Shown: in pieces, positions 1 to 8,878 of the stretch
Numbering within the stretch: position 1 is the stretch's first letter
How the letters are laid out: every line of letters begins with the position of its first letter
Virus record (IMG/VR): IMGVR_UViG_3300019760_000013
Coordinates: 1 to 22,057 of that record
Length of the DNA: 22,057 nt
Reading direction: 5' to 3' (one strand)
Source of the DNA: a virus
Notes under the pieces: generated by a model
Told to the model about the DNA's origin: nothing
The model's input: only the letters and a program-made list of their open reading frames with translations
Database searches by the model: none
Program-made: the position numbers and the translations under genes

Positions 1-10
1 CCCCCCCCAA

Positions 11-53
11 CGAAAGCTCTTTCGACAGGTGAACCCACTTTCTCCTGTCGAAA
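11..53. other. Two overlapping, mutually exclusive hairpins
   Basis: CGAAAG (11-16) can pair with CTTTCG (19-24), although the two-base gap makes that hairpin strained. TTTCGACAGG (20-29) pairs perfectly over ten bases with CCTGTCGAAA (44-53) around a 14-base loop. Bases 20-24 belong to both stems, so only one can form at a time. No U-run follows the larger stem, so it is not a standard intrinsic terminator. It could be a protein-binding site, an RNA processing site or part of a genome end; the sequence alone does not decide. Confidence 0.6.
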
Positions 54-150
54 ATACCCCTAGTAGAGTACCGTAGTTCTAATGATTCGATTAACCTAAC
101 GACTTCAATAACTTATAGATTTGATGAGCTGTGTCTAACCGAAATGTCAC

Positions 151-239
151 TGTCTCTGAAATGAGCAGAAACTTGTAAGTACTTGAAATCACTCTCGACT
201 AGAGTCCGTTCGAAAAATATGTCTCTGAAATGAGCAGAA
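151..239. repeat. 20-base direct repeat, two copies 69 bases apart
   Basis: TGTCTCTGAAATGAGCAGAA occurs exactly at 151-170 and again at 220-239. Similarity continues loosely downstream of each copy, where both have TAAGTA followed by an A/T-rich stretch, so the ancestral unit may be about 40 bases. The copies lie in the only long non-coding stretch of the window, upstream of the late genes. Operators or phage-specific promoters are plausible roles. I found no further full copy in the window. Confidence 0.7.
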
Positions 240-339
240 GTGAGTTAAGTATATAGAATTATTCAATTCACTGGTTAGCACCAACTAATATTATCAAAAT
301 TGCTGAGTTTTATTAGCACCAGATTGAACAGAAACATAT

Positions 340-366
340 TTGAGAAAGTACTAAAGAAACTATAGA
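340..366 (+). promoter_or_regulatory. Weak sigma70-like promoter candidate
   Basis: TTGAGA (340-345, five of six to the -35 consensus) is followed after a short 15-base spacer by TATAGA (361-366, four of six to the -10 consensus). It lies about 60 bases upstream of the first gene and points toward it. The spacer is shorter than the usual 16-18, and A/T-rich leaders give such matches by chance, so this is only a candidate. Confidence 0.2.
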
Positions 367-423
367 CTTACGTTTGGAGGACTGATAGAATCTCAGTGAT
401 TTCAGATATGTGAGGGTTTCGGT

Positions 424-1692
424 ATGAGCTTGATAGCAAAATCACCGTTTAGAAGGATCGTTGACTCGCTGGGTCGCGTACTTCGTATCAATGAAGATGG
501 TTCGTTACCTGTCTCGGTGGAGACAAGCGCTGGACCTGTTGATGTTCAGAATCCACTACCGACAGATGGTGACAGCGTCTATTGTAAGGACGTATGGCAG
601 GACGAGAGCATAACGACAGATTGGATCGACGCTGATAGTGCTGGTGAACCTCTCGCATGTATCCCCTTCACCAACCTCCACACAGCTATTCGTAACACCA
701 CAACAGACAATCCAAAAATACTGAGGATTCACTTCAATCGCACTATATTCTCATCTCAAGTTGGACTGGGTTGTGCTGATCATGTTGGTGAGACCTTCAG
801 TAATGTACTTGTCAAATTAATAGGCAGCGGTGACACAGTCAGAACAGTTGTTGATGACAGCGGTGACTCAACGAAAGAGACAAGCAAAGATTATCCTTTC
901 GAACCTCAACGAGTCAATGCTATTGAGTTAGAGTTTCACACGGTAGACCCTATCTGCGTTTCGAACATAACTATATCTAAGGCTACAGAAACCGCAACGT
1001 TTCAAAGACTTCAAAAGCCTGATGGTACTGTTATCTTTCAACAGGGAACACAATCAGGTAATGCAAAGGTAAGTCTTGAAGAGTTGGAGAATCAGATCAG
1101 TGATGATACTAACCAACGTTTAATGGTATCACCATATTTGATTGATGAGTTTGGTGAAGTGGCAAGAATGCTCGGTGATAACTTGTTTCAAGGTTCACCT
1201 ATTGTCATCGACTCAGCACATCATGAAATTCATTGCGGTGATAGTTATGAAATGGCATTAGTCGAAACCCTTGGTAACGGTGGAGTACTGGACGTTCTTA
1301 TTGTTGTTCCTGATGAACCAGGGACAGGACAAGCACAAAAATTATATCATCTGAAAGGTATGGTTGACTCACAATCAGAAGCATTGGTTGAATTCTTCGA
1401 AGATACAATTGTGTCAGCAAATGGAACGATCCAAAGTGTGTTCAATCGTAATCGTAACAGTACCCTTGTTGATTATCTTCCCATTTATGAAGGACCAACA
1501 ATCACCAATGATGGTGCAAGATTATACCCAAAGATCATCGGTTCAGGTCGTGCAGTCGGTGGATCAGCAGGACGTGAGAATGAAATCATATTGAAGAACA
1601 ACACAACTTATCTTCTGCGAGTCACAAATCAAGTTACGACAGACAACAATATAAACGTCGAGTTGGATTATTACGTTCATCCAGGAGTATAA
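424..1692 (+). CDS. Phage virion/tail-associated structural protein
   Basis: This 422-residue protein resembles a group of conserved phage structural proteins, often annotated only as structural or hypothetical, that combine two beta-rich halves. The N-terminal half has the NPLPTDGDSVY motif (43-53) and a segment around IHFNRTI (102-108). The C-terminal half has FNRNR (340-344), EGPTITNDGARLYPK (356-370) and a closing strand set ILKNNTTYLLRVTN (389-402) followed by LDYY (414-417), a pattern I know from phage virion proteins. There is no signal peptide or membrane segment. The ATG at 424 has GAGGG at 412-416, seven bases upstream. The next gene starts one base after its stop. A fibre, baseplate or head-decoration role is possible; which one is not visible. 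The family resemblance is from memory of sequence patterns. Confidence 0.6.
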   Translation: MSLIAKSPFRRIVDSLGRVLRINEDGSLPVSVETSAGPVDVQNPLPTDGDSVYCKDVWQDESITTDWIDADSAGEPLACIPFTNLHTAIRNTTTDNPKILRIHFNRTIFSSQVGLGCADHVGETFSNVLVKLIGSGDTVRTVVDDSGDSTKETSKDYPFEPQRVNAIELEFHTVDPICVSNITISKATETATFQRLQKPDGTVIFQQGTQSGNAKVSLEELENQISDDTNQRLMVSPYLIDEFGEVARMLGDNLFQGSPIVIDSAHHEIHCGDSYEMALVETLGNGGVLDVLIVVPDEPGTGQAQKLYHLKGMVDSQSEALVEFFEDTIVSANGTIQSVFNRNRNSTLVDYLPIYEGPTITNDGARLYPKIIGSGRAVGGSAGRENEIILKNNTTYLLRVTNQVTTDNNINVELDYYVHPGV

Positions 1693-1693
1693 A

Positions 1694-2083
1694 ATGAAGA
1701 AAATATTGTTAGTTATTTTGTTGGTTGCTTCAACGTCGTTTGCAATGGATATCAAAGGATCTGTGCAACTTGATTTTACTGATGTCGAGTTGACAGATGC
1801 TGTACCGACGTACACGAATATCGTCAACACTCAATACATCAACGATGTATTTGTCCACACGATAACGGATAAAGGGTCAACGGTATCCATCACTCCTGTA
1901 TTATCTGATACTGACGATACTCTGTTAGGACCGACACCAACAGCTACAGTCATTGCGAACGGTGGAGGGACAGACACCACACCGTTCAGTCGCATCATGG
2001 CTCCACGAGCTAAGATCACAGTGACAAAGACTGAAGCAGGAACGACATCTGGGTTTGTTGTGTCGGTGAGGGGTAATCAATGA
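1694..2083 (+). CDS. Small protein with Sec signal peptide, function unknown
   Basis: This 129-residue protein starts with MKK, a hydrophobic core ILLVILLVA and a TSFA cleavage-like end near residue 17: a textbook signal peptide. The rest is Thr/Val/Asp-rich with alternating hydrophobic residues, suggesting a small beta-sandwich (strand-like runs near 20-35, 45-70 and 105-128), and it has no cysteine. AGGAG at 1683-1687 lies six bases before the ATG. The stop overlaps the next start as ATGA, implying translational coupling to the following signal-peptide protein. I recognise no family. It may be exported from the infected cell, or it may be a virion protein with a hydrophobic N-terminus. The gene call is firm; the function is not. 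Confidence 0.65.
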   Translation: MKKILLVILLVASTSFAMDIKGSVQLDFTDVELTDAVPTYTNIVNTQYINDVFVHTITDKGSTVSITPVLSDTDDTLLGPTPTATVIANGGGTDTTPFSRIMAPRAKITVTKTEAGTTSGFVVSVRGNQ

Positions 2084-3264
2084 GATATCTAATCACACTG
2101 ATATTTATCCTGTTTTCGTTTAGTCCGTGTTTCGCTGGATCTGACCAGGGGCATCCTACCATCGGTGGAATTGATGGTTTAAGCGACCAGACAATCACTG
2201 GTTCGTGGGAGTTTGGCTCAACAGTTATCGGGCCTGAAATGGCCGTTGCTGATCTTGAAGAAGATGGACAGTGGGCGTTTGATCCTGCAACTGGGCGCAT
2301 GAATTACATCAATACAACAGGCGGTAACATTTGGTATGTCCAGTTAACTGATTCTGGCGATGGACCAACGCCTCCACCAGCAACATACACCCTCACCTCA
2401 TCCGTAACTGGTGACGGGGTAATTACGATCGGCGGCATACCTTACTCAGCGACAGGATCACCCCATACTATTACAGGGGTAAGCGGCGACACTCCGATTA
2501 CAGCAAGCTACCCCGGAAGTGATGACACGTTGACTTGGAGCGGGACGGATAGCGCGGATGTGACAGGTTCGACACCTAATTATAGCATTACGATGGATGC
2601 GGCTAAGTCTCTTAGTGCCGACTTTAAGACTGCCTTTGTATCATATCAGCTTGAAGAAACATTTGACGGGCCTCTTAGTTGTGGCTCTGGCCTGAGTACC
2701 AATTGTGACACTGCTTTGATCATAACTAGTCCAACCGCTATAACGACTAATTCCACTAATGGTTTGCCTAGTGGAACATATCAAATGGAACTCGGAGCAA
2801 CGACAGCAAACGCAAGAATTGACCTCTCGTCTACTTCTGGTAATGCGACAACCTATGTCACTTTTAGGATTCGTTTTGAAGAAATTCCATCAGCTGCGGC
2901 ATACATTGTCATTGGTTACGATGTAGGACTAAATCCAATATTTAGTCTTAATCTTGATGCAGGTCAGCACTTTTGGGGCGATATAGATGGTGGTGCTAAT
3001 TTGGGAGACACAACTATAACAGCCACCGCTGATACGTTTTATTACGTTAAATTAGCATACACTGCTGACACAGGACCAGTAAACGCATCATATCAATATT
3101 GGGTATCCACGGATGGTACAACATGGACAGATACTGTAGCACCAGGCACAGTTGACACAACTGATAATCAAATTGACAACCTGCGGATAAATAATGACAA
3201 TTCTGCACCCTACTACATCGACAATATTAAAGTTGATGACGAGGACATAACTGATGCGACTTAA
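2080..3264 (+). CDS. Exported LamG-like protein with InlB B-repeat-like and fibre-like segments
   Basis: This 394-residue protein has a Sec-type signal peptide (1-19, ending SPCFA). Residues 35-50 read SDQTITGSWEFGSTVI, close to the short repeat motif seen in phage tail fibres (QTISGxWxF). Residues about 102-182 form a divergent InlB B-repeat/bacterial-repeat-like unit that ends in an SLSADF-type strand, preceded by a Pro-rich linker (95-100). Residues about 188-390 look like a concanavalin/LamG jelly-roll, with the typical closing YYIDNIKVDD (378-387). Such modules usually bind carbohydrate or surface polymers. It starts inside the preceding stop (ATGA), and its last 11 bases overlap the lyase-like gene, so the three signal-peptide genes are one translational unit. 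A matrix- or surface-binding role is inferred; a fibre subunit is the alternative. Confidence 0.65.
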   Translation: MRYLITLIFILFSFSPCFAGSDQGHPTIGGIDGLSDQTITGSWEFGSTVIGPEMAVADLEEDGQWAFDPATGRMNYINTTGGNIWYVQLTDSGDGPTPPPATYTLTSSVTGDGVITIGGIPYSATGSPHTITGVSGDTPITASYPGSDDTLTWSGTDSADVTGSTPNYSITMDAAKSLSADFKTAFVSYQLEETFDGPLSCGSGLSTNCDTALIITSPTAITTNSTNGLPSGTYQMELGATTANARIDLSSTSGNATTYVTFRIRFEEIPSAAAYIVIGYDVGLNPIFSLNLDAGQHFWGDIDGGANLGDTTITATADTFYYVKLAYTADTGPVNASYQYWVSTDGTTWTDTVAPGTVDTTDNQIDNLRINNDNSAPYYIDNIKVDDEDITDAT

Positions 3265-4963
3265 ATTAGCATTATTAGCGATTGTCCTTCTTGTCCCAGC
3301 CGTTGCTCTTAGTCTTGATGCATTCCCTGGGGCTGTTGGTGTCGGAAAGAACACGGTTGGCGGAAGAGGCGGGGCGGTTATCCATGTTACCAATCTTAAT
3401 GACTCAGGTACTGGCAGTTTGCGGGAGGCTCTTGCAACTACTGGAGCGAGAACTGTTGTTTTTGATGTGTCTGGAAATATTGATCTCACATCGATTTTAA
3501 CTGTCACTGAGCCATATGTGACAATTGCAGGGCAGACGTCCCCCGGCGGCATCGCGGTATCTGGTAAGCAGTTTAACGTTGCGACTCATGATGTGATTAT
3601 TAGGCACATGCGGTTTAGGGCTGGGGGCCACAGATACGACGGCAATGATAGTGACGGGGATAGCTTCAGCGTGTGGGGAAAGAACTGGAATGGTGGTATA
3701 GATGTTTACAACATCATGATCGACCATTGCTCTTTCACTTGGGGTGTTGATGAAACAATGTCGGTCACTGGTGGTGCTGAGAATGTCACTATCCAGAATT
3801 CAATGATTGCTGGGGGCTTGTGGTACTCAAAACTCGGAACAGGCAACCACAGTAAGGGATTAATGGTTAGCGGTAAGAATAACTACGATACGGAGGTGTC
3901 AGTATATAAAAACTACATAGCTCATAACTATGATCGTAGCCCACTCATATCAAACCCTGACGCAGACAATACAAGCATGCTGGTAGACTACGTTAATAAC
4001 GTCTCTTATAACTGGCATAGTGGACTACGTCCCTCGGGCGGCGGTGACGCACATATAAACTGGATCGCAAACTACATGAAGGAGGGTCCGGATAGCGCAA
4101 GAGCCGATTTTTTCATGCAGCAAGAATACGAACCAGCCGCAGGTACGGAGCCACTATTCTATGTTCTGGATAATATCGGCACAGGCAGAAATATAGGCGA
4201 TAGTCAATGGCTAGTGTCTGAGAATTATACGTCCGTCTTATTGACTAATGCATACCAGCAAGCTACGCGCTGGACGATGACTGAGCCTTTGCCATACGAG
4301 ACAATGACCAGCACACTAGCATCAAGTATCGTAACTGACGCGGGGGCAACTGTGCCAATTCGTGATAGCGTCGATACTGCATATATTGATTCTTTTGACG
4401 CCGGCACAAATGAGATGGAAGATGGTGCAGGAGATAAATCTTACCCCTCTGATTGGCCGACCTACTCAACAGCTAACGACAACCCAATAGACACCGATTC
4501 AGACGGTATGCCCGATACGTGGGAGACCGCAAACGGCACAAATCCAAGCATTGCAGACGATGACACCGTTATCAGTAGCGGAGACTACGCTGGATATACA
4601 AACATCGAGTGGTATCTGTCAGATCTCGCTGGTGATACAACAACCACACCAACAACAACCCGCTACTACCTAGACGCGGACGCAGACGGATACAGCCCAG
4701 GCACATATCAAGACGCAGAAACCGACCCCGGCCCAACGTGGTACACAGCAGCAGAACTCACAGCATTAACGGTAGACTGCGACGACTCGAGCGCATCTGT
4801 CCATCCAGGTGTAACAGAAATATGCGGCAACGGTATCGATGAGGATTGTAGCGGTGGTGATCAACTCTGCTCCGGTGCAAGTTTCACAGGTGCTGGAAGT
4901 GTTAATTATACAGGTGCTGGAAGTGTTAATTATACAGGTGCTGGAAGTGTTAAATTTCAATAA
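3254..4963 (+). CDS. Exported pectate-lyase-like beta-helix protein with calcium-binding repeats
   Basis: This 569-residue protein has a signal peptide (1-20). Residues about 22-380 match pectate lyase / polysaccharide lyase family 1-like right-handed beta-helices: FPGAVGVGKNTVGGRGG (24-40), SGTGSLREAL (51-60), VTIAGQTSPGGIAV (89-102), then DHCSFTWGVDE (157-167) with the Asp expected near the calcium site. HNYDRSP (224-230) places Arg228 where PL1 enzymes keep the catalytic arginine. Residues 413-437 are a thrombospondin type-3-like Asp repeat (DTDSDGMPDTWE). Residues 471-538 are a MopE-like putative metal-binding motif (DADADGY, DCDDSS, EICGNGIDEDCSG). Three TGAGSV repeats close the chain. 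GAGG at 3241-3244 precedes the ATG. It probably cleaves an acidic polysaccharide outside the cytoplasm; the substrate is unknown. Confidence 0.8.
   Translation: MRLKLALLAIVLLVPAVALSLDAFPGAVGVGKNTVGGRGGAVIHVTNLNDSGTGSLREALATTGARTVVFDVSGNIDLTSILTVTEPYVTIAGQTSPGGIAVSGKQFNVATHDVIIRHMRFRAGGHRYDGNDSDGDSFSVWGKNWNGGIDVYNIMIDHCSFTWGVDETMSVTGGAENVTIQNSMIAGGLWYSKLGTGNHSKGLMVSGKNNYDTEVSVYKNYIAHNYDRSPLISNPDADNTSMLVDYVNNVSYNWHSGLRPSGGGDAHINWIANYMKEGPDSARADFFMQQEYEPAAGTEPLFYVLDNIGTGRNIGDSQWLVSENYTSVLLTNAYQQATRWTMTEPLPYETMTSTLASSIVTDAGATVPIRDSVDTAYIDSFDAGTNEMEDGAGDKSYPSDWPTYSTANDNPIDTDSDGMPDTWETANGTNPSIADDDTVISSGDYAGYTNIEWYLSDLAGDTTTTPTTTRYYLDADADGYSPGTYQDAETDPGPTWYTAAELTALTVDCDDSSASVHPGVTEICGNGIDEDCSGGDQLCSGASFTGAGSVNYTGAGSVNYTGAGSVKFQ
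4886..4957 (+). repeat. Three tandem 24-base repeats at the end of the lyase-like gene
   Basis: Units at 4886-4909 and 4910-4933 are identical. The third, 4934-4957, differs only in its last few bases. They encode TGAGSVNY, TGAGSVNY and TGAGSVKF, directly before the final Gln and stop. Being in-frame multiples of three, they can expand or contract without breaking the gene. A short Gly/Ser beta-strand tail of this kind may act as a trimerisation, anchoring or sorting segment; that is inference. Confidence 0.95.
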
Positions 4964-4975
4964 AAGGAGAACAAA

Positions 4976-5089
4976 ATGAAAGAAGGATTTTTTGATAGAA
5001 TGATTCGCAGGATTAAAAGTCTTCCGTGGCAAGCAACACACTCTGCTGCATTTATCGCTGGTGTTATTGTGGCTGTCTGGTTGAGGTAA
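4976..5089 (+). CDS. 37-residue single-helix membrane protein, candidate holin-like peptide
   Basis: This short gene lies exactly between the lyase-like gene and the small terminase gene. AAAGGAG at 4963-4969 gives a good ribosome site before the ATG. The product has a basic, amphipathic N-terminus (MKEGFFDRMIRRIKSLPWQ) followed by one hydrophobic segment (residues about 20-36) ending in Trp-Leu-Arg. The terminase ribosome site GAGG (5083-5086) sits in its last codons, and the ATG at 5092 follows two bases after its stop. Size, topology and closeness to the muramidase suggest a small holin-like or membrane-modulating peptide. I recognise no family, and a positive N-terminus with a single helix is a loose criterion. 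Confidence 0.6.
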   Translation: MKEGFFDRMIRRIKSLPWQATHSAAFIAGVIVAVWLR

Positions 5090-5091
5090 AT

Positions 5092-5658
5092 ATGAACGAC
5101 AAGCTCAACATACTAGCACCGCAGAAACGCATGTTCGTGTTGGAATACATGAAACACAATTTCAATGTGTCTGCTGCGTCAAAGTCTATTAGGATAGGTA
5201 CTTCAACGGGATCAGGGTATCTCGGTGAGTTGGATGTTCAAGAGGCGATTGCGGAACAGATGGCTGCTCGTGTTGAGCGTACTCAGATTGATGCGGATTG
5301 GGTGTTGTTGCAACTTGATAAGATGTTTAATGCTGATGTGGCTGACATCTTTACCCCCGGTACGAATGATCTGAAACCTGTTCATGAATGGCCTGAAACA
5401 TGGCGTAAGATGACAACCAGTATTAAGATCGATGATCGTTATGACAAAGGTCAGGACAAAGCATACCAAGTTAAAGATATCAAGATTCTGGATCGACTGA
5501 AGACACTTAACATGATTGGTAAACACACTGACGTTCGAGCGTTCACTGAGCGAATCGAGATCACAACTGATCAGGATCTAACAGATCGACTTATGGCGGG
5601 ACGTAAAAGAGCAAACAAACGTAACACCAATAAACCGGAGAAGGATCAGTTCTTATGA
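5092..5658 (+). CDS. Terminase small subunit
   Basis: This 188-residue protein has the features of the Terminase_2-type small subunit: an N-terminal helix-turn-helix-like stretch (LAPQKRMFVLEYMKHNFNVS, then AASKSIRIG and the tail of a recognition helix), and a middle segment with VLLQLDKMFNADVADIF, in the position typical of these DNA-recognition subunits. The C-terminus is basic (RKRANKRNTNK) and may contact DNA or the large subunit. The frame is open upstream to 5026, but the ATG at 5092 is preceded by GAGG five bases away and avoids overlap with the membrane peptide, so I use it. It binds the packaging site and recruits the large subunit, which is unusually encoded four genes downstream rather than next door. 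It overlaps the muramidase start by ATGA. Confidence 0.85.
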   Translation: MNDKLNILAPQKRMFVLEYMKHNFNVSAASKSIRIGTSTGSGYLGELDVQEAIAEQMAARVERTQIDADWVLLQLDKMFNADVADIFTPGTNDLKPVHEWPETWRKMTTSIKIDDRYDKGQDKAYQVKDIKILDRLKTLNMIGKHTDVRAFTERIEITTDQDLTDRLMAGRKRANKRNTNKPEKDQFL

Positions 5659-6194
5659 GCAAGACCAAGGATAAGATCATCAATGATATTATTGCTGCTG
5701 AAGGTGGGTATGTTGACAATCCTTATGACTCAGGTGGTCCGACAAACTTCGGTGTAACTCGACCCGTGGCACGAGCAGCAGGATATATGGGCATGATGAA
5801 AGACATGCCGGTCGAACTTGCTTTCAGGATATACAGCACTCGTTATTGGGATTCTGTTATGGGTGACGATCTTGAGAAAGTGTCACCGGCGGTTGCGAAA
5901 GAAGTCGTTGATACTGGTGTCCTGTGTGGTCAAGGTCGAGCGTCATCATTCTTACAGGTTTGTTTGAACGCGTTCAATCGACGTGAAAAGTATTATAAGG
6001 ACATTGAGGTTGACGGAAACATAGGACCAGCAACGATTGAGGCATTGAAAGCATATTCAAAAGTTCGTGATGACGGTGCATTGGTCAAAGCGTTGAACGT
6101 GTTACAAGGTGCTTTCCTCATTGATCTAACACTACGACGTGAGAAAGATGAAGAGTTTGTTTATGGTTGGTTGAAGAACAGAGTGGAGGTTTGA
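5655..6194 (+). CDS. GH108-family endolysin (N-acetylmuramidase)
   Basis: This 179-residue protein matches glycoside hydrolase family 108 by IINDIIAAEGGYVDNPYDSGG (9-28). Glu16 in the EGGY motif is the expected catalytic residue, followed by GPTNFGVT (28-35). The C-terminal half (about 108-176) fits the small predicted peptidoglycan-binding domain that accompanies these enzymes, with VDGNIGPATIEAL. There is no signal peptide or N-terminal anchor helix, so it should gather in the cytoplasm and need a holin to reach the wall. The membrane peptide at 4976 and the coiled-coil membrane protein at 6909 are the candidates. It cuts the glycan strand of peptidoglycan at lysis. Length is normal for the family. 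Confidence 0.93.
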   Translation: MSKTKDKIINDIIAAEGGYVDNPYDSGGPTNFGVTRPVARAAGYMGMMKDMPVELAFRIYSTRYWDSVMGDDLEKVSPAVAKEVVDTGVLCGQGRASSFLQVCLNAFNRREKYYKDIEVDGNIGPATIEALKAYSKVRDDGALVKALNVLQGAFLIDLTLRREKDEEFVYGWLKNRVEV

Positions 6195-6196
6195 TC

Positions 6197-6889
6197 GTGT
6201 CATATTGCAAGGATACATCTCTGAAACTGGCAGAACTTTGTTGTGAGTCATATGATGATACCCATGGTGTCATATCAATAGGAGATACACAGGTTCTTAT
6301 CAGGCAGGAACTTGACAGGTTATATATAGCTTTCCGTGGCACAGAGTCGGACAGTATCCACGATTGGTTATCTGATTTGGATATAAGAAAAGAGAATTTC
6401 AACGATGTACCCGTACACAAAGGGTTCAAGGATGCTTATACCGATGTTCGTTGCTCTATTCTATCAAGATGTAGAAGTAACGACATCAACTATATAAGCG
6501 TTACAGGACACTCATTAGGTGCAGCATTGGCACAATTATGCGCCTTTGATCTTAAATGTTTAGAGTTCAATGTCGATGAAGTTTACACATTTGGTTGTCC
6601 TCGTTCCGGTGGGTCCAAGTTTGTAAAAAAATATGATAATCTTCTCAGCGGTGTATCTCACCGGGTTGTCAATAACAATGATATCGTGACGAGAGTACCA
6701 ACGTTGTTGAGATGGAGACACACGAAGAATCTAGTGTATTACAATCGCAATGGTACCATAGGGAAGAAACCATTTTTCTTAGGTTATATAAAAGAGATTT
6801 ACCATAACATGACCAGTTTCAATTTCGGTGATAAATTCACAGATCACTCGATCAATGATTATATAAAAGTTATCAAAGGCGCTAAATAA
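6197..6889 (+). CDS. Class 3 lipase / esterase (alpha/beta hydrolase)
   Basis: I start this gene at GTG 6197: GGAGG at 6185-6189 lies seven bases upstream, and the muramidase stop ends at 6194. An ATG at 6167 in the same frame would overlap the muramidase by 28 bases and add ten unlikely residues. The 230-residue product has the class 3 lipase signature: FRGTE (46-50, oxyanion region), VTGHSLGAALAQL (102-114) with nucleophile Ser106, a PRSGG segment (135-139), NNNDIVTRVP (159-168) with candidate Asp162, and DHSINDY (216-222) with candidate His217. The triad is complete. No signal peptide is seen. Following the muramidase directly, it could attack membrane lipids or lipid esters of the envelope during lysis; that role is inferred. 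Confidence 0.9.
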   Translation: MSYCKDTSLKLAELCCESYDDTHGVISIGDTQVLIRQELDRLYIAFRGTESDSIHDWLSDLDIRKENFNDVPVHKGFKDAYTDVRCSILSRCRSNDINYISVTGHSLGAALAQLCAFDLKCLEFNVDEVYTFGCPRSGGSKFVKKYDNLLSGVSHRVVNNNDIVTRVPTLLRWRHTKNLVYYNRNGTIGKKPFFLGYIKEIYHNMTSFNFGDKFTDHSINDYIKVIKGAK

Positions 6890-6908
6890 ACCAGGAGACA
6901 TCATCATC

Positions 6909-7346
6909 ATGGGAGAACCATGTAGCCAGGAGACAGCGATTCTTGAACAACGTTCAATCCTACTCCATCAAGAAGCGGCAATTAAGCGAATTGAGGGACA
7001 CATGGTTGACTCTAAGAAGACTGCTGAAAAGTTGGTTGATGCTATTGTTGAACTGACTAGACACCATGAACAGATTATTGCTGTGAATGAGAAGGTGGTC
7101 AAGAATGAAGATGACGTTCGCAACCTGTTCAAATTGTTTCGTGAAGAAGAGGTTCGATTGAATGCTCATATATTAACACCGAGACACTCTACAGCGGGAA
7201 AACCTGATGCGAAAGATGCGAAGTTCGGGAAGGTCCAGGTGTCGATTGTAACAGGTATCATTATTGCTGTGATTCATTCGCTGTGGGATATTCTCACAAA
7301 CATGGTGGTAGTGGTCCAACAACTCATTGAAAAGGCTCCCAGATGA
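6909..7346 (+). CDS. Coiled-coil protein with one C-terminal membrane helix, holin/XhlA-like candidate
   Basis: This 145-residue protein has an N-terminal helical, charged region (about 10-90) with heptad-like hydrophobic spacing, then a Lys/Asp-rich hinge (93-108) and a hydrophobic segment (about 110-126, VQVSIVTGIIIAVIHSL), followed by VVVVQQLI. A long coiled coil before a single membrane helix resembles the XhlA-type hemolysin/holin-accessory proteins that sit beside endolysins, but I cannot confirm homology. GGAG at 6894-6897 is 11 bases before the ATG, somewhat far. Its stop overlaps the large terminase start as ATGA. Context (muramidase, lipase) supports a lysis role; a packaging-related membrane protein is the alternative. 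Confidence 0.6.
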   Translation: MGEPCSQETAILEQRSILLHQEAAIKRIEGHMVDSKKTAEKLVDAIVELTRHHEQIIAVNEKVVKNEDDVRNLFKLFREEEVRLNAHILTPRHSTAGKPDAKDAKFGKVQVSIVTGIIIAVIHSLWDILTNMVVVVQQLIEKAPR

Positions 7347-8878
7347 GTGTAGCAGTCAAACGCATAACGAATATTGATGCAGAGATAGCATCAGACTGTG
7401 CTCATTATTATGATGATCCTTTGGGGTGGGTGTTGTGGGCGTTTCCGTGGGGTGAAGAAGGAACACAACTTGAAGATTTTAACGGTCCTGATAATTGGCA
7501 AGTAGAGTTTCTTGAAGAGTGGGGTCGTCAGATTAAGATCAGATCCTTTGACGGGTTCACTCCTTGTGCTCCTATTCAGTTCGGTATTGCATCCGGTCAT
7601 GGTATTGGTAAGTCAGCGGTATCAGCTTGGATCATACTGTTCATTATGTCAACACGAGCACATTCTAAAGGTGTTGTCACTGCGAATACATCTGACCAAC
7701 TGCGAACAAAGACATGGGGTGAGTTGGGTAAATGGCGCAAAATGTGTGTCACTGGTCATTGGTTTGAGTATAACAACGGCCGCGGTAACATGTCGATCTA
7801 TCGTCACGGTCATTCTGAGACATGGCGTGTTGACGCTCAAACGTGCCGCGAAGAGAACAGCGAGTCGTTCGCCGGTCTGCATTGTGCTAACTCTACACCC
7901 TGGTATCTGTTCGATGAAGGATCTGCTGTACCAGACAAGATATACGAGGTTGCTGAAGGTGGTAAGACTGACGGTGAACCGATGCACTTTGTATTCGGGA
8001 ACCCTACCCGTAACAGTGGTAAGTTCCATGAGATATTTCACGGACAGAAACACCGATGGATCACGAAACAGATTGACTCTCGCAGTGCGAAGATGACGAA
8101 CAAGAAACAGATTGAAACATGGCGGCAAGATTGGGGTGAAGACTCCGACTTCTTCCGTGTTCGTGTCCTTGGTCGATTCCCTAAAGCGGGAGATATGCAA
8201 TACATCCCGAACGATGTTGTGCATATTTGCCAGAAGATTGAGACTCGTTTCTACCAAGACGACCCGTTGATCTGCGGTATTGATGCTGCGCGCGGTGGCG
8301 AAGATAATGCAATGATTCAGTTCCGTCGTGGTTTTGATGCGCGGTCTGAGAAAGCATATAGAATTCCTGGTGAGAAGATCCGCGATTCAATGAAGTTCGT
8401 CAGCAAGGTTGTTGATGTACTGAATCGTCACCAACCAGACGTGATCTTCTGTGACTCAGGAGCAATGGGTGGACCTATCGCTGATCGTCTGCGTCAGCTT
8501 GGTTATAACGCCATTGACGTTGGTTTCGGTGAGTCAGCAGCAGATGATAAACAATATCGCAATAGAACGGCTGAGATGTGGTCACGAATGCGTAACTGGT
8601 TATTTGCTGGTGGAGCGATTAAAGAAAATGCTCAACTTGAGAAAGAATTGACTGACCGTGAGTACACTCACAACGATAAAGATCAACTCGTAATGGAGAA
8701 AAAGAAGGATATGAAGTCACGCGGTCTTGCTTCTCCTGATTGGGCTGATGCACTTGGATTGACATTTGCTGAGCATGTTCCAAAGAAAATACTCACTCAG
8801 AGTGATGAAATACTTACAATGAGAGGGAAAGTGAATAAAAAAGCTTTGAGAAGTCCGCTAGATAAGTTAAGCTGTTGA
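7343..8878 (+). CDS. Terminase large subunit (ATPase and nuclease)
   Basis: This 511-residue protein is the packaging motor. SGHGIGKS (84-91) is the Walker A motif. WYLFDEG (187-193) is the Walker B motif with catalytic Glu192. VFGNPTR (217-223) fits the coupling motif. The RNase H-like nuclease domain starts at CGIDAARGGED (311-321), with Asp314 as a metal ligand; IFCDSGAMGG (368-377) gives Asp371, and SPDWADALGL (464-473) gives Asp467 as the third acidic site. It hydrolyses ATP to drive DNA through the portal and cuts concatemers. The start overlaps the previous stop by ATGA. The small subunit lies about 1.7 kb upstream, with the lysis genes in between. Length is usual. Confidence 0.95.
   Translation: MSVAVKRITNIDAEIASDCAHYYDDPLGWVLWAFPWGEEGTQLEDFNGPDNWQVEFLEEWGRQIKIRSFDGFTPCAPIQFGIASGHGIGKSAVSAWIILFIMSTRAHSKGVVTANTSDQLRTKTWGELGKWRKMCVTGHWFEYNNGRGNMSIYRHGHSETWRVDAQTCREENSESFAGLHCANSTPWYLFDEGSAVPDKIYEVAEGGKTDGEPMHFVFGNPTRNSGKFHEIFHGQKHRWITKQIDSRSAKMTNKKQIETWRQDWGEDSDFFRVRVLGRFPKAGDMQYIPNDVVHICQKIETRFYQDDPLICGIDAARGGEDNAMIQFRRGFDARSEKAYRIPGEKIRDSMKFVSKVVDVLNRHQPDVIFCDSGAMGGPIADRLRQLGYNAIDVGFGESAADDKQYRNRTAEMWSRMRNWLFAGGAIKENAQLEKELTDREYTHNDKDQLVMEKKKDMKSRGLASPDWADALGLTFAEHVPKKILTQSDEILTMRGKVNKKALRSPLDKLSC

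Follow-up and report, generated by a model that had tools for sequence, protein, structure and literature searches.

A virus record from IMG/VR (IMGVR_UViG_3300019760_000013), of which the 22,057 nt from position 1 to 22,057 were analysed (the window; the record may be a fragment), carries three consecutive, overlapping plus-strand genes, SP1, SP2 and SP3, whose export signals are well supported by sequence and the last of which encodes a predicted polysaccharide lyase. On balance, we regard the trio as a late-expressed, Sec-exported adsorption/depolymerase cassette, at least part of which probably attaches to virions once it has been exported or the cell has lysed. Virion association of these three proteins is extrapolated by analogy. 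In the textbook view, tailed phages assemble wholly in the cytoplasm, and phage depolymerases are virion tailspikes without signal peptides.

The trio occupies the tail-fibre slot of the podovirus-type late operon of a tailed phage (Table 1), with a tail-type gene before it and lysis and packaging genes after it, a position for which gp19-20 of Vibrio phage 1.021.A serve as comparison. SP1 starts 1 nt past the stop of the preceding gene, whose product is, to judge from its sequence, probably a tail or virion protein. SP1 and SP2 are joined by an ATGA overlap and SP2 and SP3 by an 11-nt overlap, which fits the coupling proposed in an earlier note made from the letters alone. The short ORF behind SP3 is possibly a lysis gene. 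The same note had taken a G/C-richer composition of this region as fitting acquisition. This argument is weak, because the other measured genes span 38.5-47.1% GC and SP3 alone, with 48.1%, lies slightly above them (SP1 44.1%, SP2 45.2%); per-gene GC is not decisive for a foreign base composition of the trio.

Table 1. Features of the window around the exported trio.
Feature	Position	Strand	Description and evidence
Upstream gene, same operon	424..1692	+	422 aa; phrog_5335 E 2.5e-11 (weak); no signal peptide
SP1	1694..2083	+	129 aa; Sec signal peptide MKKILLVILLVASTSFA followed by MDIK; no homologue found
SP1 signal peptide	1694..1744	+	17 residues; heuristic cleavage
SP2	2080..3264	+	394 aa; Sec signal peptide MRYLITLIFILFSFSPCFA followed by GSDQ; beta-rich body
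SP2 signal peptide	2080..2136	+	19 residues; best heuristic site two residues further on
SP3	3254..4963	+	569 aa; signal peptide, PL1 lyase, TSP3-like, MopE, GAGSV repeats
SP3 signal peptide	3254..3319	+	20-22 residues; kept in L109 orthologue
PL1-type lyase region	3320..4633	+	about residues 23-460; phmmer, Foldseek, motifs
MopE putative metal-binding motif	4775..4861	+	PF11617, residues 508-536; E 2.3e-11
Three repeats	4875..4953	+	24-nt spacing; encode (Y/F)TGAGSVN
37-aa ORF	4976..5089	+	one membrane-like segment (MKEGFFDRMIRRIKSLPWQATHSAAFIAGVIVAVWLR)
Terminase small subunit	5092..5658	+	PF03592
Endolysin	5655..6194	+	GH108 plus PG_binding_3
Class 3 lipase, lysis region	6167..6889	+	domain match; no signal peptide (signal peptide test)
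Terminase large subunit	7343..8878	+	61% to Vibrio phage 1.021.A

All signal peptide calls in this study rest on a home-made heuristic that looks for a positive n-region, a hydrophobic h-region and small residues at -3/-1. Applied to the 21 plus-strand ORFs of the window, it called exactly SP1, SP2 and SP3, so that the three adjacent signal peptides of the earlier note were recovered at the exact coordinates. Since the heuristic accepted only 0.34% of internal Met pseudo-starts (17/4981) and 0.7% of shuffled N-termini (9/1268), three adjacent calls would arise by chance with a probability in the order of 1e-5 or less. All three N-termini have the full n/h/c architecture by this heuristic, and no second membrane-like segment was found beyond the signal peptide in SP1, SP2 or SP3. 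Cleavage is likely at TSFA/MDIK in SP1, at PCFA/GSDQ in SP2 and at AVALS/LDAF or LDA/FPGA in SP3. Gln at +1, the mark of the Bacteroidetes Q-rule, is absent from these sites (A/M, A/G, S/L or A/F), which fits a non-Bacteroidetes host; the terminases nearest to those of this phage belong to Vibrio and Pseudomonas phages.

That SP3 is a PL1-type polysaccharide lyase of the pectate-lyase type is well supported by sequence and model, its activity being predicted. Residues 23-312 align with PfPL1 (PDB 9buj; phmmer E 3.1e-36), and the AlphaFold model (mean pLDDT 62, pTM 0.70) matches 9buj (Foldseek E 2.9e-16) and several pectate lyases, in agreement with the PL1-like right-handed parallel beta-helix that had been anticipated for the third protein. 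R228 and P230 of the RxP motif are invariant across 7 sequences, a DHCSF motif lies at residues 157-161, and D157-H158 and D166-E167 are mostly conserved; by analogy, R228 may be the catalytic Arg, and the acidic residues may bind Ca. To judge from the model, SP3 is unlike a trimeric tailspike: the lyase domain follows the signal peptide directly with no head- or tail-binding domain between them, no head-binding or trimerisation domain was found in SP3 with Pfam and PHROG, and the best tailspike fold match reached only E 0.08 in Foldseek. Signal peptides are also present in 71 of 80 bacterial relatives of the lyase. These features speak for the strongest alternative, the main idea of the earlier note, in which the trio would consist of soluble secreted enzymes only: once outside, they would remove exopolysaccharide around the cell or release progeny from debris, without ever becoming part of the virion.

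The body of SP2 is possibly fibre-like. The carbohydrate-binding-type folds once ascribed to this protein could not be substantiated, as SP2 gave no significant Pfam or PHROG match and its AlphaFold model (mean pLDDT 39.9) was too poor for use. Relatives of SP1 or SP2 were found neither in viral contigs and phage records nor, with phmmer, in any fetched viral or phage locus.

Recurrence in other phages was found for exported lyase clusters and not for the exact trio, which is absent from all 80 loci with related terminases. Runs of at least two signal-peptide genes occur at 10 of 35 loci of phages with a related lyase, compared with 1 of the 80 terminase-clade loci. Of the tree, which was calculated with a quick method and has long branches, the gross pattern alone was used. 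Matches in human-gut 'Bacteriophage sp.' records were disregarded, since the genes next to the lyase resemble bacterial SusC/SusD gene clusters. An orthologue of SP3 on IMG/VR contig 3300037751_000150 (L109) is 56% identical over residues 3-553, signal peptide and MopE included, and its start overlaps the upstream stop as that of SP3 does. The amino acid identity of 0.62 in the signal peptide is similar to that of 0.60 in the catalytic part (pS 0.73 and 0.82, synonymous sites being near saturation), and conservation of the signal peptide in this orthologue is well supported by the alignment. The L109 phage is only distantly related to that of the window (terminase 28% identical) and differs in having a single signal-peptide gene, with neighbours on both sides that lack signal peptides and homology. 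Three approaches found no signal-peptide-bearing runs in cultivated non-Bacteroidetes phages; in this search, marine phage fibre-like proteins gave short matches only. Mycobacteriophage minor tail proteins without a signal peptide (Halley gp45) are homologous to a signal-peptide-bearing protein of L009.

The Cellulophaga phages link export signals with virions. Seven of their signal-peptide-bearing proteins carry a virion annotation based on MS/MS (phi10:1 gp091-094; phi39:1 gp25 and gp26; phiSM gp08), including one SP3 homologue, the lyase phi39:1 gp26, which belongs to PHROG 27797 like SP3; these notes are GenBank annotations, and virion preparations could contain exported proteins through co-purification. 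All seven have A, G or S followed by Q at the cleavage site, and signal-peptide-like N-termini are found in 11/23 with this motif compared with 11/255 others; the Q-rule marks signal peptidase I substrates in Bacteroidetes (PMC5837995). The virion protein phi13:1 gp24 (by MS/MS) has Mtd_N plus collagen and no signal peptide, and phi3:1 gp9 has a signal peptide in place of Mtd_N. Starting at residue 169 of gp24 and residue 23 of gp9, the two can be aligned at 63% over 1081 aa; going by this alignment, the signal peptide stands in the position of the tail-attachment domain. The otherwise unrelated phi10:1 gp94 (PHROG 'tail fiber protein') and lyase phi13:2 gp87 have a signal peptide plus about 22 aa in common, a module that suggests docking.

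The virion annotation of gp26 and its signal-peptide-bearing neighbours, the common module and the tail-fibre slot of the trio all speak against soluble enzymes only. Two signal-peptide-bearing Cellulophaga lyases, phi10:1 gp95 and phiSM gp09, have no MS/MS note and favour that alternative, which we consider rather unlikely, though a serious contender. The earlier note had contrasted an exported, matrix-acting set with a virion role. Its export signals and lyase were found, and exported lyase clusters recur in other phages. The opposition of export to a virion role did not survive the Cellulophaga annotations: by analogy with them, secretion and a place in the virion are not mutually exclusive. 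The note had named intact virion components with uncleaved N-termini as its refutation; presence in virions would not refute export, because signal-peptide-bearing Cellulophaga proteins are annotated as virion.

It is improbable that the trio proteins are conventional parts of the virion, added to it in the cytoplasm, whose uncleaved hydrophobic N-terminus is a tail anchor and not an export signal. The tail-fibre slot would suit such appendages, as would homologous lyases without a signal peptide that adjoin tail-type genes in other phages, and a signal peptide can occupy the Mtd_N position. However, the segments have the full n/h/c architecture and resemble the signal peptides of secreted bacterial relatives, and the Bacteroidetes phage versions follow the Q-rule of the host in 7/7 cases, for which an internal anchor offers no reason. 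Even less credible is a lysogenic-conversion cargo, or the host-surface cargo that the earlier note had also suggested, expressed separately from the lytic genes: PHROG places the lyase family in 'moron, auxiliary metabolic gene and host takeover' and the terminase clade lacks the trio, but the overlapping genes directly follow a tail-type gene in a single plus-strand late operon, in the tail-fibre slot immediately 5' of lysis and packaging genes, no promoter or terminator of their own stands out (promoter-like sites 22 vs 17.7 expected, terminator-like sites 5 vs 6.0 expected, both near chance), and no integration or repressor gene was found in the 22 kb of this possibly fragmentary record.

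If the trio is an exported adsorption/depolymerase cassette, the three preproteins would cross the inner membrane late in infection, be processed by signal peptidase I and accumulate in the periplasm, perhaps outside the cell as well, and would meet the released virions upon lysis by endolysin and holin. SP3 would cut an acidic polysaccharide in the matrix or capsule of the host. Part of the trio, at least, would attach to the virion and serve there as accessory receptor-binding/depolymerase proteins, in line with the Cellulophaga MS/MS annotation. More tentatively, we speculate that unrelated tailed phages send their outermost adhesins and depolymerases through the Sec pathway, with a signal peptide replacing the tail-attachment domain, maturation in the periplasm and joining to virions during or after lysis, so that the particle is completed outside the cytoplasm.

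Tail-slot proteins and polysaccharide lyases bear export signals in this phage and, recurrently, in others; these signals are host-adapted where the host is known. The exported proteins annotated in Cellulophaga particles are unexplained by the usual picture of cytoplasmic tail assembly. Either tailed virions can acquire components after export, or some entries of published virion proteomes are secreted phage enzymes; both alternatives would alter the annotation of phage structural proteins and depolymerases.

Among known systems, PfPL1, bacterial secreted PL1 lyases and the periplasmic depolymerase VexL (6fi2) have the PL1 beta-helix and the D-H-C and R-x-P motifs of SP3; they are, however, cellular enzymes, whereas SP3 belongs to a phage late operon. 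The P22 and phi297 tailspikes are beta-helical polysaccharide cutters from the tail-fibre slot like SP3, but they lack a signal peptide, are trimeric and have a head-binding domain (fold match E 0.08-0.15). Porphyromonas gingivalis phages encode Q-rule proteins with host-adapted Sec signal peptides outside the lysis set, for which the authors considered a possible role in modifying the outer membrane (PMC10367356), and signal peptides on Nekkels and Ingeline lyase proteins were mentioned in passing (PMC8776804). Most similar are the runs phi10:1 gp091-095, phi39:1 gp25-26, Nekkels_1 genes 53-55, phi13:2 gp084-087 and phiSM/phi3:1 gp08-09, in which (nearly) consecutive Sec signal-peptide genes lie in the tail-fibre slot with a homologous lyase last; like the window, phi10:1 and phi13:2 have membrane-type ORFs and a GH108 endolysin downstream of the run. 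They differ in their Bacteroidetes hosts, Q-rule cleavage and long N-terminal extensions on most lyases, which are about 31-37% identical to SP3, while the bodies of the other signal-peptide proteins are not homologous to SP1 or SP2. Virion membership is given by MS/MS annotation in the Cellulophaga phages and is predicted by analogy for the trio.

The window, an IMG/VR record of 22,057 bases, comes from a podovirus-type phage (portal PF12236, E 1e-149) whose terminase is 61% identical to that of Vibrio phage 1.021.A and whose head and tail genes are ordered as in that phage. The main genes are all encoded on the plus strand. In this late operon a tail-type gene, preceded by 423 bases without a clear gene, is followed by the trio of overlapping genes SP1, SP2 and SP3 (SP, signal peptide), a 37-aa membrane-type ORF, the terminase small subunit, a GH108 endolysin, a class 3 lipase, a holin-like gene, the terminase large subunit, the portal and the rest. 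A 237-aa protein and a parallel beta-helix protein are encoded in the matching tail slot of Vibrio phage 1.021.A, directly 5' of the lysis genes; the trio thus occupies the tail-fibre/tailspike slot. Here the tail-slot and lysis genes immediately surround the terminase genes, whereas in the Vibrio relative MG592403.1 the beta-helix gene and lysozyme come after the giant internal protein. The endolysin, lipase and holin-like genes of the window stand between the terminase subunits. Only 5 of 50,697 phage records contain weak relatives of the class 3 lipase, which might help to break the outer membrane at lysis, replacing spanins. Small membrane-type ORFs like the one 3' of the lyase also come after SP runs in other phages.

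Features of the window and of compared loci
Feature	Position	Strand	Remarks
Gene-free left end	1-423		C run
Hairpin	20-53		14-nt arms
Two identical 20-nt repeats	at 151, 220		5' of first late gene
First late gene	424-1692	+	tail-type
Tail-slot and lysis genes	424-8878		immediately around terminase genes
SP1	1694-2083	+	129 aa
SP2	2080-3264	+	394 aa
SP3	3254-4963	+	569 aa
Three 24-nt repeats	4875-4953		code (F/Y)TGAGSVN, lyase C-terminus
37-aa ORF	4976-5089		good ribosome-binding site (AAAGGAG), one membrane-like segment
Class 3 lipase	6167-6889		PF01764, E 1.6e-25; no SP
Terminase large subunit	7343-8878		phrog_5902
L109, terminase large subunit	6426-7844		phrog_5902
L138, phage-like contig	4970-6130		SP-bearing, K1-lyase C-terminal domain (PF24146, E 5.7e-6)
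L114, phage-like contig	4488-6371		SP-bearing, full GH9 cellulase (PF00759, E 1e-52)

The earlier note had described three consecutive genes with Sec signal peptides, and our heuristic agrees, calling the trio alone among the 21 plus-strand ORFs (false positives: 0.34% of internal Met pseudo-starts, 0.7% of shuffled N-termini). None of the three proteins has a further membrane-like segment. The PL1-like nature proposed for the third protein is borne out by its match to the solved PL1 lyase PfPL1 (9buj), both in sequence (E 3.1e-36) and in a Foldseek search with the AlphaFold model (E 2.9e-16), which also found VexL (4.9e-7) and further pectate lyases; phage tailspikes reached E 0.08 or worse. 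The catalytic arginine of PL1 enzymes sits in an RxP motif, and the residues of this motif in SP3, R228 and P230, are invariant across seven sequences. C-terminal to the lyase part follow a MopE motif (E 2.3e-11) and three GAGSV repeats; a similar GAGSV motif closes the lyase protein of loci L005 and L126. The carbohydrate binding suggested for SP2 found no support: neither SP1 nor SP2 has detectable relatives among domain and family profiles, viral contigs, phage records or fetched loci, and the SP2 model (mean pLDDT 39.9) is of no use.

As to recurrence, the trio is absent from all 80 loci with related terminases, and runs of at least two SP genes occur in 10 of 35 distinct phage loci with related lyases versus one terminase-clade locus of 80, which resembles lysis genes. 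The lyase of the IMG/VR contig L109 is 56% identical to SP3 over residues 3-553, a span including the SP, and its start overlaps the upstream stop in the same way, while the terminases share just 28% identity. phrog_5902, listed as of unknown function, matches both terminase large subunits and is therefore probably a terminase family. Between SP3 and the L109 lyase the SP is conserved like the catalytic part (identity 0.62 and 0.60) although synonymous differences are close to saturation (pS 0.73 and 0.82), as would be expected of a signal still in use and not of one in decay. Judging by the SP in 71 of 80 cellular relatives, the lyase belongs to a family of secreted enzymes. About half of the phage members carry an SP and half do not; both kinds interleave on a quick tree, whose supported branches force at least five to six changes. 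Two human-gut "Bacteriophage sp." records (L101, MT835976; L102, MT835778) have SusC/SusD-like N-termini beside the lyase and resemble bacterial polysaccharide-utilisation gene clusters; they are unlikely to be phage.

The nearest annotated parallels come from Cellulophaga phages. Phage phi10:1 encodes consecutive SP-bearing proteins, gp091-094, that are annotated "structural protein, experimental MS/MS proteomics" and are followed by an SP-bearing lyase (gp095), membrane-type ORFs and a GH108 endolysin. MS/MS annotation also places phi39:1 gp25 and its SP-bearing lyase gp26, and SP-bearing phiSM gp08, in the virion. In each of the seven SP proteins with an MS/MS note, Gln follows [AGS] where cleavage is expected, a motif found in 11 of 23 SP-like N-termini versus 11 of 255 others in six Cellulophaga phages. 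Since this matches the Q-rule of Bacteroidetes signal peptidase I (Gln after the cleavage point; PMC5837995, PMC10653852), the export signals look real and host-adapted, even though the proteins bearing them have a virion annotation. SPs of Nekkels and Ingeline lyase proteins were noted in passing (PMC8776804), and Porphyromonas phages have Q-rule genes of unknown function (PMC10367356); our literature search found no paper treating exported tail proteins as a phenomenon.

In one pair of relatives an SP replaces a tail-attachment domain. Virion protein gp24 of phi13:1 (MS/MS annotation) lacks an SP. Its N-terminus is formed by the tail-fibre domain Mtd_N (E 1.3e-10), after which come a collagen repeat, a GDSL lipase, a region weakly matching a CBM, and the lyase. 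From residue 169 gp24 is 63% identical over 1081 residues to phi3:1 gp9 (from residue 23), which has a Sec SP instead; one protein body therefore exists with either an attachment domain or an SP. Phage adhesins combine a conserved N-terminus with an exchangeable C-terminus. The otherwise unrelated phi10:1 gp94 (PHROG "tail fiber protein") and lyase phi13:2 gp87 share, at 93% identity, an N-terminal module of 42 residues made up of the SP and ~22 more, and the 132-residue N-termini of Nekkels 54 and phi10:1 gp93 are ~95% identical, the remainder differing. In these proteins the conserved unit opens with a signal for export. Locus L009 encodes an SP-bearing protein whose body is 28% identical over 421 aa to SP-less mycobacteriophage minor tail proteins.

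The observation of the earlier note is confirmed, and its interpretation is supported in part. We propose that the trio are phage adsorption/depolymerase proteins using the Sec route: they would be exported in the host, the lyase would cut polysaccharide, and docking on virions would follow export or lysis. The chief alternative, that they are soluble secreted enzymes, differs solely in whether the mature proteins bind virions. The MS/MS virion proteins of the Cellulophaga phages may include exported proteins co-purifying with virions; several other SP-like proteins of these phages (small ones and two lyases) lack the MS/MS note, which counts against indiscriminate carry-over, although small size may account for some.
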